A stretch of DNA of 64,000 nucleotides from Caryophanales bacterium (GTDB lineage Bacteria; Bacillota_I; Bacilli_A; RF39; UBA660): the NCBI GenBank assembly GCA_016282375.1, contig JAEEKI010000019.1, positions 1 to 64,000 of the forward strand, written 5' to 3'. Below the pieces are notes generated by a model. The model saw only the letters and a list, made by a program, of their open reading frames with translations, was not told the DNA's origin and ran no database searches. Every line of letters begins with the position of its first letter. The stretch's first letter is position 1. Below are positions 1,838 to 49,977 of the stretch, in pieces. A program made the position numbers and the translations under genes.

Positions 1838-1866
1838 AAAAGACCACTATTGGATAGTAGTCTTAA
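1838..1866 (-). terminator. Intrinsic terminator of the LRR surface protein gene
   Basis: Minus strand AAGACTACTATCCAATAGTGGTCTTTTTTTT hairpin plus T-run. Confidence 0.8.
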
Positions 1867-1873
1867 TAGCACA

Positions 1874-3211
1874 TTATGATAATGGAGTCCCCATAAATAC
1901 ATCTGCTCCTAGAGTTCCACCATAAGAGGATGTAAACTCAGATGCAGAGGTATATGTAATACCATTATAAGTTACTGATGTTAATACACCACAATTCCTA
2001 AATGCTCGATTATCAATTGATGTAACAGAATTCGGTATCGTTATGGATGATAAACCCGTAGTGGAAATTGCCGAATAACCAATAGATGTCACACCACTTG
2101 GAATATTAATACTAATCAACTTAGGACAGTTTTCAAATGTCAAATTCGGAATTTGTGTTAAAGCACTAGATAATGTTACTTCTGATAAATTACTAATATT
2201 TTGAAAAGAATTTGCACCCAGTGATGTAACTGTATTTGGCATTGTCATAGTAAATAATCTCGTACTAGAAAAAGCATAAGTACCAATGCTTACTATTGGG
2301 CTTGAAATAGTCACTTCTATCAAATTATTCGTTCTATAAAAATTATAATTGCCAATCGAAGTAATATTGCCAGTAATTTCCAAATATTCTATCGAATTAA
2401 AATTTGAACGCCAAGGCTGCTCTGACTCGCTTGTGTAATCAGGCATTGCACCAGAACCAGTTATTTTCAAAAGACCATTACTGTTCAAAGTCCATGTTAT
2501 GTTTTCATTGACACTACCACTGGCAATTTGTGTAACCCCAATAGTGCCCGCAACACATGAAACATTAGCTACTTTAAACCTACCTGAAAAATTCTTACCC
2601 TCTAAAACTTCTTGATTAGCATTCAAATTATAAATTCTACTTATTAAATGCCAAACAGCCGTATTAGTTGAACTACCAGATCCATCAATTTTGGCACCAC
2701 TTACAATGACCGCGCTAGTATTATTACCTACCGCAGCAGTAAAATCTTTTTCTGCTAAAATGTTATTAGTGCCATGCTTAGTATTGTCATTATATGTTTG
2801 ATATGCTTGAATAGTAAACTCATTACTTGTTACTCCACTTGTATGAGTTGTATACCTGTCACTTGAAGTCCATTCGAAAACAATATCGTATGTACAAACC
2901 ATATCATAATCAGTATTAGGAGTAAAATTTACGGTTAAATCCGTGGTATTAGTCACGGCGGCAAACTTACTATTAGCTAGGCCATCAGACATCTTAGCAA
3001 GAGAGATATTAAGGGACATACCACCCCCTACAGTATCAAACACCATATTATTTTGCTCAGTCATGGTGTTAGAATTAACTGCATTTATTACATTCATATT
3101 ACCCACAGAAAAATAAGCATAGGTTGCCCCAATGATTAATGCTAAAAAAATAATAATAACGATGACTAGTAATACCACATTTTGTTTTTTCATATATGCT
3201 CCTACTATCAT
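1874..3211 (-). CDS. Exported surface protein, paralog 2: TasA/camelysin-like N-terminus with BspA-type leucine-rich repeats (likely start MKK at 3193)
   Basis: N-terminal signal ...GATYAYFSVGNMN; C-terminal repeats of the type LTSLGANSFQNISNLSEVTLSSALTQIPNLTFENCPKLISINIPSGVTSIG (LRR_5-like). Confidence 0.8.
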   Translation of the reverse strand: MIVGAYMKKQNVVLLVIVIIIFLALIIGATYAYFSVGNMNVINAVNSNTMTEQNNMVFDTVGGGMSLNISLAKMSDGLANSKFAAVTNTTDLTVNFTPNTDYDMVCTYDIVFEWTSSDRYTTHTSGVTSNEFTIQAYQTYNDNTKHGTNNILAEKDFTAAVGNNTSAVIVSGAKIDGSGSSTNTAVWHLISRIYNLNANQEVLEGKNFSGRFKVANVSCVAGTIGVTQIASGSVNENITWTLNSNGLLKITGSGAMPDYTSESEQPWRSNFNSIEYLEITGNITSIGNYNFYRTNNLIEVTISSPIVSIGTYAFSSTRLFTMTMPNTVTSLGANSFQNISNLSEVTLSSALTQIPNLTFENCPKLISINIPSGVTSIGYSAISTTGLSSITIPNSVTSIDNRAFRNCGVLTSVTYNGITYTSASEFTSSYGGTLGADVFMGTPLS

Positions 3212-3257
3212 TAAGTATACAATATAAAGAAACTCTTAGCAAGATAATATCACAAAT

Positions 3258-3292
3258 AAAAAAGGCCATTAATATATGAAGTGGCCTTTTTA
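3258..3292 (-). terminator. Terminator after the LysR gene
   Basis: AAAAAGGCCA...TGGCCTTTTT hairpin. Confidence 0.75.
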
Positions 3293-3298
3293 AAAAAC

Positions 3299-4216
3299 TT
3301 ATTTAATACTTATTTTTTTTACTTCATCTTTAAAACATTTTATAAACTCTGCTGTGGTTTTGTTCAAAAAATTGGGATTATAGGCAATACTAAATTTAGT
3401 TGTTGGTGTTTTAAAATCAACTGGTATTTCATATAACTCTTTTCTTTTGAAATCATCTTCTAAACACTTTTTAATACCCCATCCAATACCAATACCTTCT
3501 TTGGCTAAAGATTGAGTTACCTCGGTAGCATAACAAGTAAATTGATTTTTAATGACAAGGTTATTCTTCTTCAGAATCTCTTCTAGTTCATTAATGTCTG
3601 GATAACCTCGCATCGGATAAATAATAGGATAATCCACAATCGTATCATGATTCTTTAGATATAAATCATAATACTTTTTATTAGCAAAGAAACATGTCTC
3701 TAATTCACAAATTACTTCTTCGGTTAGAACATGTTCATTTAAGAAAATAGGATATTGTAAGACAACAAAGTCTAATTCATTATTGCGAAGTTTTTCTAAC
3801 ATTTCCATATTACTAGTCATATAAATATCAAACTTAGCATTGGGATATTTATTACTAAATTCATGCATGACTTTCGGAAGCATAAATTGAGCAATATGGG
3901 AGTATATACCAACCCGAATAGTTCCCGTTAAATCATCTTCTTTTTCGGTTAAGATTCTTTCCCCCATCAGGATATTCTCAAAAGCATTTTTAATGTAATA
4001 CAATAGTTTTTCACCATCTTCGGTTAATGTAACCGTTTTATTATTCCGAATAAATAATTGTGTATTAAGTTGTTGCTCTAAATTCTTAATGGCATTACTT
4101 ATCGCTGGTTGTGAAACAAACATATTTTCTGCAGCTTTAGAAAAACTTTTATATTCCGCTACGGCATAAAAGAAACGATATTTGTTAAAATCATAATTAT
4201 TTTCTAGTATTCCCAT
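3299..4216 (-). CDS. LysR family transcriptional regulator
   Basis: N-terminal HTH YKSFSKAAENMFVSQPAISNAIKNLEQQLNTQLFIR and substrate-binding domain. Confidence 0.92.
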   Translation of the reverse strand: MGILENNYDFNKYRFFYAVAEYKSFSKAAENMFVSQPAISNAIKNLEQQLNTQLFIRNNKTVTLTEDGEKLLYYIKNAFENILMGERILTEKEDDLTGTIRVGIYSHIAQFMLPKVMHEFSNKYPNAKFDIYMTSNMEMLEKLRNNELDFVVLQYPIFLNEHVLTEEVICELETCFFANKKYYDLYLKNHDTIVDYPIIYPMRGYPDINELEEILKKNNLVIKNQFTCYATEVTQSLAKEGIGIGWGIKKCLEDDFKRKELYEIPVDFKTPTTKFSIAYNPNFLNKTTAEFIKCFKDEVKKISIK

Positions 4217-41713: not shown

Positions 41714-41744
41714 AATCTAATTTCACTTAAAGCAAAATTAGATT
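41714..41744 (-). terminator. 10-bp stem hairpin downstream of surface paralog 3
   Basis: AATCTAATTT (41714-41723) / AAATTAGATT (41735-41744), 11-nt loop, followed by T-run on the minus strand. Confidence 0.6.
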
Positions 41745-41784
41745 CAAGATATTAAGATGTTCGGAAGATCGCGTGGACGACCAG
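41732..41784 (-). repeat. Conserved 53-bp non-coding 3' flank, copy A
   Basis: 51/53 identical to 48752-48804 by direct comparison. Confidence 0.95.
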
Positions 41785-41802
41785 GCAATAATCTCAGCCA
41801 CC

Positions 41803-42903
41803 CTACGATGAACAACGAGCATGGCCAGAGGCATCAACTTCACAGGCCGCGCTCGCAGTCGCAGAGGCATCGTTACAGTAGACATAACCCTCGATGCTCA
41901 CTTCACAGCTGAGGTGCACATCACCGCAAAAAGCGTATCTGCCGTTAGCGCCGCAATCACTTATATCAAGTGTTATTCCTGCATCGATAAAGGCTTGATA
42001 TATTGCTTGTATGGCACTGGCTTTTTGTTCTGATGTTAAATCACTATTCAATGTATGTCCACTTAACCCATATTGAGTATATGGTTGACTTAAACATATT
42101 TCATGTCCCTGAATTGTTGCACATGCATAGTACTTACTACTATCTTGTCCTATATAGACATTATGGCCTGTTGCTGTTCCACTACTTTGTAATGTTCCAC
42201 CATAGTTTGGATGTGTATGGAGTGTATGTAATTCATCAAACCAATAACTTGTTGGACCTGGTGAAGCTACACAAGAAACGTTGGCTACTTTAAATCTTCC
42301 TGAATATGTTTTACCTGATAAGGCACTTTGATCACTATATGAATTATAAAACCAACTGCCAATTAACCATTCAGCGGTTGTTGTATTAGCACCCGTTCCG
42401 GCAATAGATGCTCCGCTTACGACCGTCGCACTATTTTGGTTTCCTACCAACTCCGATAAGTCAACACCATCTTCCGCATAATTAGTTCCGCTACTTACAC
42501 CAGCACTTGGCTCCAACATGACACTTATTCCAAATTCAATGTCAGTTTCTCCTGGGGAATGAGTTGTATAACGATCTGTACTTGTCCATTCATATACGAT
42601 ATCATACGTACATGCCATACGATAATCCGTATTCGGAGTAAAATTGACAACCAAAACATTTTCATCATATGCGGCGGCCTCACCACTTAAAGCTTCCGAC
42701 ATATTTGCGGCTGTTATATTTAATTGCATTCCTCCGCCTAGAGTATCAAACACCATATTATTTCTTTCAGTAACTGTATTAGCATTTGCTACATTTGTTA
42801 TATTCATATTACCGGTTGAAAAGTATGCATAGGTTGCTCCGATTATTGTTACTAATAATGTAACTATTGCTATCGTTAATAAAATTATATTATTCTTTTT
42901 CAT
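41803..42903 (-). CDS. Exported TasA/camelysin-like surface protein, paralog 3, Cys-rich diversified C-terminus
   Basis: N-terminus MKKNNIILLTIAIVTLLVTIIGATYAYFSTGNMNITNVANANTVTERNNMVFDTLGGG; C-terminus CGANGRYAFCGDVHLSCEVSIEGYVYCNDASATASAACEVDASGHARCSS. Confidence 0.85.
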   Translation of the reverse strand: MKKNNIILLTIAIVTLLVTIIGATYAYFSTGNMNITNVANANTVTERNNMVFDTLGGGMQLNITAANMSEALSGEAAAYDENVLVVNFTPNTDYRMACTYDIVYEWTSTDRYTTHSPGETDIEFGISVMLEPSAGVSSGTNYAEDGVDLSELVGNQNSATVVSGASIAGTGANTTTAEWLIGSWFYNSYSDQSALSGKTYSGRFKVANVSCVASPGPTSYWFDELHTLHTHPNYGGTLQSSGTATGHNVYIGQDSSKYYACATIQGHEICLSQPYTQYGLSGHTLNSDLTSEQKASAIQAIYQAFIDAGITLDISDCGANGRYAFCGDVHLSCEVSIEGYVYCNDASATASAACEVDASGHARCSS

Positions 42904-42952: not shown

Positions 42953-43843
42953 TTATATTAATTCATATTCTCTGGCAATAATTCTATCATCTGAGCAATA
43001 CTTAATGACATATTTGTTATCCTGCTTACAAACAATGATACCGATTGTTTTATCTTGATTTATTCTTTTTACATTTTCATCTATGTAATTCATATATACT
43101 TGAATTTGACCTATATGTTCTTTCTTTAATTCAGTTATTTTTAATTCCACTACTACATAACAATTATATTCTATATTAAATAGAAGTAAATCAATATAGT
43201 TATATCTATTACCTACTTTAATCTTATATTCACTTCCTACAAAACTAAAAGCATCACCTAGTTCTTTCATAAATGACTCAATATCCTCTAAGATTATTTT
43301 TTTTAATACTTTTTCCGAAAAACATTCATAATTAGTGCAATTTTTAATTAAAATTGGATTTTTAACTAAATCTTTAATATTCAATTTATCATTGTTTCTT
43401 ATTTTATATTTAGTCTTTTCATCAACGCGACTATATTCATCATTTTTTATTATTTCTCTTAACTTTCGATAACTTATATTTTTATTAATAACAATACTAA
43501 TGTAATAATTAACCTCATCAGCATTAGACAATATCATTAATTCTGTTATATGACTCCAACTTAATTCGGTCGGCAATGACGACCATTTTAAATCTTTAAC
43601 AAATCTATAAAATTGTCTGTATCTTCTTAAAGTTCTTTCATTATACTTTTTATTTAATTCATTTTTTAATTTATTTGCATAGTCGCAAATAACATTTTCT
43701 CCATAATGTTTTCCAGCATCATTTAGCATTTTTCCAACTTTATAGTATGTATTTAAGTCACTTTTATTAATGGAATAGTTTTTTACACTTTTATTAATTT
43801 CATTGTTAATTAATTCATTTTTTATTTCATCGTAATAATTCAT
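42953..43843 (-). CDS. DUF1016 (YhcG/PDDEXK nuclease) family protein
   Basis: ELSWSHITELM, YNYIDLLLFNIEYNCYVVVELKITELKKEHIGQIQVYMNYID, KQDNKYVIKYCSD. Confidence 0.88.
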   Translation of the reverse strand: MNYYDEIKNELINNEINKSVKNYSINKSDLNTYYKVGKMLNDAGKHYGENVICDYANKLKNELNKKYNERTLRRYRQFYRFVKDLKWSSLPTELSWSHITELMILSNADEVNYYISIVINKNISYRKLREIIKNDEYSRVDEKTKYKIRNNDKLNIKDLVKNPILIKNCTNYECFSEKVLKKIILEDIESFMKELGDAFSFVGSEYKIKVGNRYNYIDLLLFNIEYNCYVVVELKITELKKEHIGQIQVYMNYIDENVKRINQDKTIGIIVCKQDNKYVIKYCSDDRIIAREYELI

Positions 43844-48736: not shown

Positions 48737-48760
48737 TAATTTTGCCTATCGGCAAAATTA
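48737..48760 (-). repeat. Perfect 10-bp stem / 4-nt loop hairpin downstream of surface paralog 4
   Basis: TAATTTTGCC (48737-48746) TATC GGCAAAATTA (48751-48760). Confidence 0.9.
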
Positions 48761-48804
48761 GATTCAAGATATTAAGATGTTCGGAAGAACGCGGGGACGA
48801 CCAG
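48752..48804 (-). repeat. Conserved 53-bp non-coding 3' flank, copy B
   Basis: 51/53 identical to 41732-41784. Confidence 0.95.
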
Positions 48805-48813
48805 ACACCAAGC

Positions 48814-49977
48814 TCAGCCACCATACGATTCACAAGCAGCATGACCAGAGGCATCTACTTCACAGCTATCGCTCGCATCGCCACAGAAGACTATGCCATA
48901 AACGACGTCCACCGTACAGGAGATGTCCCCATCATAAAAGACACAATTAACATTATCATCGTTGGCACCACAACTCCAATTAACATCCCAGCCTTCAACC
49001 AATTCATTTCCAGCATCAATGAATACTTGCCCAAGCGCTTGCGAAGAACTTGCTTTTTGCGCACTTGTTAAATTATTACCTATAATGTGATCTTCAAGGC
49101 CATATTGACTATATGGTTGCGATAAACATACTTCATGGCCATTACCATCATTGGCACATGCATAGTACTTACTACTATCTTGGCCTATATATACATTATG
49201 TCCTGTTGCTGTTCCACTACTTTGTAATGTTCCTCCGTAATTTGGATGTGTATATAATGGTTCATATTGTTCGGTATTATCATTCCATGTTGATGGTGCA
49301 AACCAGTAACTTGTTGGTCCTGATGGAATTGCGGTTCCTGCTACACATGAGACATTGGCCACCTTAAACTTTCCTGCATATGTTTTTTCTGATAATGTAC
49401 TTTGATCTGCATTTACATTATAAAACTTACTTGTTAATGTCCATACTGCTGTACTTGTCGTAGAACCTGTTCCATCTATTTGGGCTCCACTTACTACTGT
49501 TGCGGCATAGTTTGTATATATTAACGTGGATAAATCAGTCTCACTACTTATACTATTGGTTCCTTGTGATACGTGCGCATTATTTGCTAAAGTACCTTGA
49601 ATGGTAAATTCATTACTTGTTACTCCACTTGTATGTGTTGTATATTTATCAGTACTTGTCCATTCATATACAATATCATAGGTACATACCATACTATAAT
49701 CAGTGTTGGGTGTAAAATTTACAGTTAGTGTGGTAGAGTTGTTGGCCGCTACAGTTCCATTATTGGCTTGTACCATATTCGCAGCTGTAATATTAAGACT
49801 CATTCCGCCACCTAAGGTATCAAATACCATATTATTTCTCTCTGTTACTGTATTAGCATTTGCTACATTCGTTATATTCATATAACCTGTTGCAAAGTAT
49901 GCATACGTTGCAAAGGTAACTATGGCAAATAATGTTACTATGGCTATTATTATTAATATTATATTATACTTTTTCAT
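48814..49977 (-). CDS. Exported TasA/camelysin-like surface protein, paralog 4, Cys-rich diversified C-terminus
   Basis: N-terminal module as the other paralogs; C-terminus CGANDDNVNCVFYDGDISCTVDVVYGIVFCGDASDSCEVDASGHAACESYGG. Confidence 0.85.
   Translation of the reverse strand: MKKYNIILIIIAIVTLFAIVTFATYAYFATGYMNITNVANANTVTERNNMVFDTLGGGMSLNITAANMVQANNGTVAANNSTTLTVNFTPNTDYSMVCTYDIVYEWTSTDKYTTHTSGVTSNEFTIQGTLANNAHVSQGTNSISSETDLSTLIYTNYAATVVSGAQIDGTGSTTSTAVWTLTSKFYNVNADQSTLSEKTYAGKFKVANVSCVAGTAIPSGPTSYWFAPSTWNDNTEQYEPLYTHPNYGGTLQSSGTATGHNVYIGQDSSKYYACANDGNGHEVCLSQPYSQYGLEDHIIGNNLTSAQKASSSQALGQVFIDAGNELVEGWDVNWSCGANDDNVNCVFYDGDISCTVDVVYGIVFCGDASDSCEVDASGHAACESYGG

Follow-up and report, generated by a model that had tools for sequence, protein, structure and literature searches.

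Whether the hypervariable tails of two related surface proteins are targets of a diversity-generating retroelement (DGR) whose reverse transcriptase (RT) and template repeat (TR) lie elsewhere in the genome is the question raised by a 64,000-nucleotide stretch of DNA (hereafter the window; GC content 28.9%) from G000, the AT-rich genome of a gut-type bacterium assembled into 24 contigs (1.08 Mb, 85% complete). The two genes concerned are the following:

41803-42903, minus strand: paralog 3, a 366-aa surface protein (open reading frame and translation)
48814-49977, minus strand: paralog 4, a 387-aa surface protein of the same family (open reading frame, translation and alignment)

The two proteins are 66% identical over their length. 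An earlier note on this DNA had described their tails as differing in codons in which bases 1 and 2 are scrambled and the third base is kept, and all of the codon pairs that it listed (CAC/GAC, CTC/ATC, AGC/TCC, AGC/GAC, ATC/GTC, TAC/TTC and AAC/GGC) were recovered in our alignment, as were the TGT, GTG and GAT codons kept between both tails. Its count of 98 G/C among the 180 nucleotides at 41761-41940 is exact, and no other stretch of the window is as rich in GC as the two tails.

Paralog 3 consists of an N-terminal membrane segment with a TYAYF-type SipW-like motif, a beta-rich middle part and the diversified C-terminal domain, and matched no Pfam family. Stretches resembling paralog 4 occur 69 times in G000, most of them more than 60% identical and many at contig ends, indicating that these repeats break the assembly. 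The C-terminal domain also terminates open frames of the 750-aa class, and leucine-rich-repeat-like surface proteins likewise begin with the ~216 N-terminal residues of the paralogs; since both halves are found on other proteins, they represent separate modules. One such product is encoded in the window at 1874-3211 (minus strand), where the common ~216 residues precede a leucine-rich-repeat-like C-terminus, so that the N-terminal half serves as a surface-display module on several protein types. The paralog proteins are probably exported through their N-terminal segments, which makes a binding role at the surface likely. Directly upstream of paralog 3 lies a gene for a YhcG/DUF1016 PDDEXK nuclease (42953-43843, minus strand).

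In G000, 20 related variable repeats (VRs) lie at the 3' ends of their target genes, and the tails of paralogs 3 and 4 belong to this set. In the window, the VRs and the elements that follow them were delimited as listed here:

41760-41955, minus strand: VR of paralog 3, which starts at the first Cys codon of the tail, includes the stop codon and reaches to the 3' boundary (aligned with the 20 anchored copies; A-site signature)
41716-41759, minus strand: 3' target-site element of paralog 3 (anchor scan, DNA fold z = -3.6, homology to the element of the relative G214)
48780-48972, minus strand: VR of paralog 4 (BLAST, alignment)
48737-48779, minus strand: 3' target-site element of paralog 4 (anchor scan, DNA fold -13.2 kcal/mol, z = -3.05)

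Both VRs extend past the stop codon, to positions 41760 and 48780, respectively, where a common anchor and hairpin start. The mechanism of DGRs and their hairpin rule, a GRNA loop 3' of the VR, have been described (PMC3240598). In paralog 4 the anchor is followed by the hairpin TAATTTTGCC-GATA-GGCAAAATTA, whose GRNA loop agrees with this rule (Guo 2011, PMC3240598). In paralog 3 the anchor CATCTTAATATCTTGAATC leads into the hairpin TCTAATTTTGC...GAAATTAGA, which is also terminator-like and whose loop is TTTAAG-like, not GRNA, so that paralog 3 is possibly a poor target now. Across G000 the anchor scan showed that one 3' site, CATCTTAATATCTTGAATCTAATTTTG plus hairpin, ends 20 copies, with the GC-rich tail preceding it in 19 and a GRNA loop in 11 of the 20 anchored hairpins. 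The VR of paralog 4 is itself composite, with ~130 bp at its 3' side that are GC-rich and near the other VRs and a 5' part that is AT-richer and diverged; with the paralog 3 VR as BLAST query, the match to paralog 4 was limited to query positions 99-229. Such a 3'-only GC-rich match would fit partial homing from the 3' end, and decay of the 5' side would look identical.

The mutational signature was quantified on 13 anchored tails that align without gaps over 46 codons. Diversity at positions 1, 2 and 3 of the hypervariable codons was 0.64, 0.62 and 0.25, the reverse of what the conserved segments immediately 5' of them show in these genes (0.07, 0.08 and 0.31). Adenine was the consensus base in 2 of 59 near-invariant columns (p = 3.5e-8 against 0.33), both belonging to GAT codons in which it is constant across the gapless copies; it was present in 43 of 46 hypervariable columns and was the commonest base there (36%). 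Among Y-ending hypervariable codons the third base was C in 69%, compared with 12.7% in ordinary genes. The third base was fixed by column in 195 of 212 cells, and the best of 5000 permutations reached 162; one codon had T in 13 of 13 copies. The scrambling of bases 1 and 2 beside a kept third base, first noticed between two tails, therefore exceeds chance among the 13 gapless copies. The non-anchored copies have lost the signature (third-base diversity 0.59). Furthermore, the excess of change at adenines continues past the stop codon, a stretch that selection on the protein cannot reach: 8 of 31 consensus-A cells were changed there, compared with 23 of 289 cells at other sites (p = 0.005), in a small test of eight copies with a background above zero. 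The tails differ from their relatives at template-A positions, as do the VRs of DGRs.

A first family-level search of 196 genomes with a tail-domain profile gave no match; against 394 relatives, the profile matched G000 and three further genomes, G214, G163 and G004. In G214, which belongs to the same family and a different genus, contig C98 (L170) displays a related target-TR-bAvd-RT arrangement. Its 206-aa target gene (2242-2862) ends in CSVYSKNVYCDASDFYCYVDSNGYVGCGDYGAGSSCYVYSAGSVYCS and is accompanied by the hairpin ATCTTTGC-GATA-GCAAAGAT; its TR, at 3086-3246, reads CNVNSESVNCNASDFNCNVNSNGNVNCNDNGAGSNCNVNSDGSVNC and is without the 3' hairpin, as expected; its bAvd-like gene matches PF22296 (E = 1.7e-9, 38.5 bits, just under the curated cut-off of 40); and its RT gene runs off the contig end, leaving the first 135 residues, which share 41% identity with a full-length DGR RT from the genus of the window's genome. 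Of 161 positions, 22 are mismatched between TR and VR, and 19 of these mismatches are at template A (Fisher p = 3e-10). The Cys spacing C-8-C-6-C-9-C-8-C-9-C is identical in the G214 target and template and in the tails of G000, and CATCT..A..TCT..AATC.A...TTTGC is common to the target-site elements of G214, G163, paralog 3 and paralog 4. When the G214 TR was aligned without gaps to the G000 tails, its A columns had a mean diversity of 0.56 and the remaining columns 0.25 (p = 3.6e-10), a result that was not equalled by any of 45 circular codon shifts; this test is not circular, because a template of another genus, with no fitting to the G000 data, was used. Since DGR machinery stands beside the same tail type in G214 and its TR predicts the variable columns of G000, we conclude that the tails are VRs of a DGR acting in trans, that is, remote targets, on a large surface-protein family (probability about 0.92), in support of what the earlier note had proposed, namely a DGR target with RT and TR elsewhere.

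The tail type was found on other proteins in the remaining relatives. In G163, a type IV pilin-like protein with a PF07963 N-terminus (L171, 7983-8873, minus strand) bears the Cys-repeat tail and the target-site hairpin, and no RT occurs among the open reading frames of the surrounding 15 kb; it appears to be a diversified pilin and another remote target. In G004 (L172, G004:C3:30000-36500), ORF 1850-4093 encodes a 747-aa protein with a VRPVLYL-type lectin region, the pattern of which resembles the template of the DGR of G004 itself, as well as the Cys-repeat tail, a single polypeptide possibly uniting two types of diversified domain. DGRs are common in the genus of the window's genome: RVT_1 genes were present in 4 of 10 genus genomes, and at five RT loci of these four (G004, G005, two in G006, and G009), each with a clear TR/VR pair, 17 of 17, 20 of 23, 15 of 16, 10 of 10 and 15 of 15 TR/VR mismatches, respectively, fell at template A. 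In the genus DGRs L080, L081, L082 and L084, which have an Avd-like gene, inspection by eye also placed a small MutS N-terminal-like gene upstream of the RT; at L083 (G005:C3), a different RT-like protein (434 aa), with a nuclease/helicase-like gene immediately after it, resembles by eye a defence-type RT rather than that of a DGR.

The earlier note had directed attention to the rest of the genome for an RT and a template, and neither was found in the 85%-complete assembly of G000. An RVT_1 search of the assembly returned no RT gene, and in a template search with the paralog 3 VR and the inferred TR of this species, which reads about CNANNNNANCNVGNLNCEVNINGYVNCNDNSENENCEVDASGHANC, all matches examined were VR genes or their target sites. 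The sequence closest to the inferred TR (C17:19599, 88%) was rejected as a TR, because it is a coding tail whose A sites often have other letters. As DNA, the inferred TR matched G000 alone in a comparison with ten genus genomes, and no Avd or MutS-like accessory gene was seen in the parts of G000 that were read. Searches of IMG/VR with the anchor and with the tail-domain profile and a degenerate VR pattern, of phages with the predicted TR peptide, and of plasmids with the protein gave no match either.

How much weight such an absence carries was indicated by a housekeeping locus. The G000 assembly holds only a 111-base partial match to rpsB-tsf, and a 3391-bp contig of the rumen MAG Tb.RUG.7 (L041, JAEEYW010000066.1), the sole public exact match to the anchor, carries rpsB and tsf between two paralogs of this family. 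It is the only contig of the family in that MAG, which has no match to the housekeeping genes of the window; on both grounds Tb.RUG.7 was rejected as a conspecific genome, and L041 is probably a misbinned piece of the window's species or of a close one. The presence of this contig in an unrelated MAG means that contigs bounded by these repeats do drop from bins, and the absence of RT and TR from the assembly is therefore weak evidence. We infer that this species has its RT/TR locus in the part of the genome missing from the 85%-complete assembly. The MAG Tb.RUG.7 also contains a textbook DGR (L132, G010:C29; VR 1943-2044, TR 2180-2281, 12 of 12 mismatches at template A) whose target has a GFTLIELLAV pilin-like start; it was rejected as the cognate system on account of its different kind of VR.

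The same absence of RT and TR from 1.08 Mb would also be expected if the DGR had since been lost and the tails were now fixed or merely reshuffled, a sub-case of the DGR reading that differs in present activity and that we regard as possible but unlikely. In Treponema denticola, strains that lack the RT yet retain targets are known (PMC4891356), several copies without the anchor have decayed, and the loop of paralog 3 is not GRNA; however, 13 copies keep near-identical non-A positions, which argues for recent mutagenesis, and in an 85%-complete assembly broken at repeats, a VR-bounded RT locus would be lost in the manner of rpsB-tsf. The system appears to be, or recently to have been, active.

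Besides the missing RT and TR, several points weigh against the DGR reading, among them the constant A of the two GAT codons, the non-GRNA loop of paralog 3 and the truncation of the G214 RT. The 3' spacers fall into about four types, so that one template cannot explain all copies, and an identical VR of at least 130 nt is common to two genes with ~85% identical bodies, which one homing event does not produce. Copies also combine their 3' spacers and VR bodies as mosaics (C13 versus C17). The small codon indels between the tails, raised as a caveat in the earlier note, are real, yet confined to a minority of copies. We read the indels, spacer types and shared VR as the outcome of several template versions over time together with recombination among paralogs. 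The shared tail and the mosaics would also suit antigenic variation driven chiefly by gene conversion between paralogs that retain a DGR-like pattern from an old template, but conversion reshuffles existing letters and does not yield saturated variation in A columns beside constant non-A columns, which makes this account improbable, and conversion probably acts together with the DGR. Gene duplication and diversifying selection on the protein without A-directed mutagenesis, named in the earlier note as the main alternative and in keeping with an expanded (69 stretches), surface-exposed and variable family in which some copies differ by codon indels, can be given hardly any credence, as selection does not fix C versus T third bases by column in a genome that uses T in 87% of Y-ending codons, does not empty constant columns of A, does not favour A sites past the stop codon, and is contradicted by a relative's TR/VR pair that predicts the variable columns here.

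For the DGR acting in trans, the following course is proposed. A template RNA would consist mostly of AAC/AAT codons amid fixed TGC, TGT, GTG and GAT codons; an error-prone RT would copy it, placing random bases opposite A; and the cDNA would replace the tail of one of some twenty target genes up to the fixed 3' site of anchor and hairpin. The product would be an exported protein with a Cys-pinned beta-repeat domain carrying random residues at fixed places, presumably a binding surface, and the domain may accordingly be expected to bind ligands.

The C-terminal domain of paralog 3 was predicted by AlphaFold2 with a pLDDT of about 80-95. A model of the domain (pLDDT 79, pTM 0.74; first 31 residues poor) shows a three-strand sheet, a helix and five short strands, and had no match in the PDB at E <= 0.001 and no lectin in the top 50. 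Fold searches with the full model returned no more than weak matches to pilus, adhesin and tail-fibre structures, on which no interpretation is placed; NCBIfam and PDB sequence searches returned nothing. No C-type lectin fold was detected in the VR domain, either as a Pfam match or in the model, the latter being of moderate weight. In our working model, a short beta-repeat has cysteines and glycines that are fixed and random letters in between. The copy number is unusual, as is a VR that is predicted to be a cysteine-rich beta-repeat and has no detectable C-type lectin relationship. It seems probable to us that these tails define a DGR subclass with a disulfide-pinned, cysteine-rich beta-repeat VR, borne by some twenty or more surface proteins here and by a type IV pilin-like protein in relatives.

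In the largest survey, which covered more than 30,000 DGRs, the annotated VR regions were systematically C-type lectins, and its authors state that remote targets escape their method (PMC8144416); in a DGR target family with Ig domains described later, the VR is still a lectin (PMC10743442). No report of the Cys-repeat tail type was found in a literature search outside of which most subscription journals and preprints lay, and a claim of priority is unsupported. A second, unrelated scaffold, if true, would reveal what a protein needs to tolerate massive variation and would supply a compact disulfide scaffold, and a DGR subclass of this kind, if true, would provide each cell with a whole repertoire of variable binders at once. 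The case of G000 further illustrates the size that a hidden trans repertoire of remote targets can reach, and it poses the testable question of why a 1.1-Mb genome keeps ~20 diversified surface proteins.

The mtd target of the Bordetella phage BPP-1 DGR is a C-type lectin. That system resembles the present one in its A-directed variation at the gene 3' end and in the GRNA-loop hairpin after the VR (PMC3240598), and differs in having one target, a phage tail fibre of the C-type lectin kind (PMC8144416), and GC-rich hairpin stems, whereas those of G000 are AT-rich except beside the loop. Scattered chromosomal VR genes served in trans are shared with the TvpA-type system of T. denticola (PMC4891356) and with Thiohalocapsa PB-PSB1 (PMC10907252). 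The former, in contrast, has up to 7 targets of the C-type lectin type (PMC4891356), and the latter, compared by numbers alone, has 15 targets with 21 VRs at nine loci (PMC10907252); G000 has ~20 VRs of one kind in 1.1 Mb. The genus DGRs (G004, G005, G006 and G009; L133-L137) likewise combine GC-rich VR/TR with AT-rich genomes and possess RT, Avd-like and MutS-like accessory genes, but those target VRs that were read belong to the GVRPVLYL lectin type and are not Cys-repeats. The DGR on C98 of G214 serves one short (206-aa), different target that adjoins TR, bAvd-like gene and RT, unlike the ~20 targets of G000, none of which adjoins an RT or TR in the assembly; it shares with the tails described here the Cys-repeat VR with the same spacing, the homologous anchor with a GATA-loop hairpin, and the position of the VR at the 3' end of the gene.
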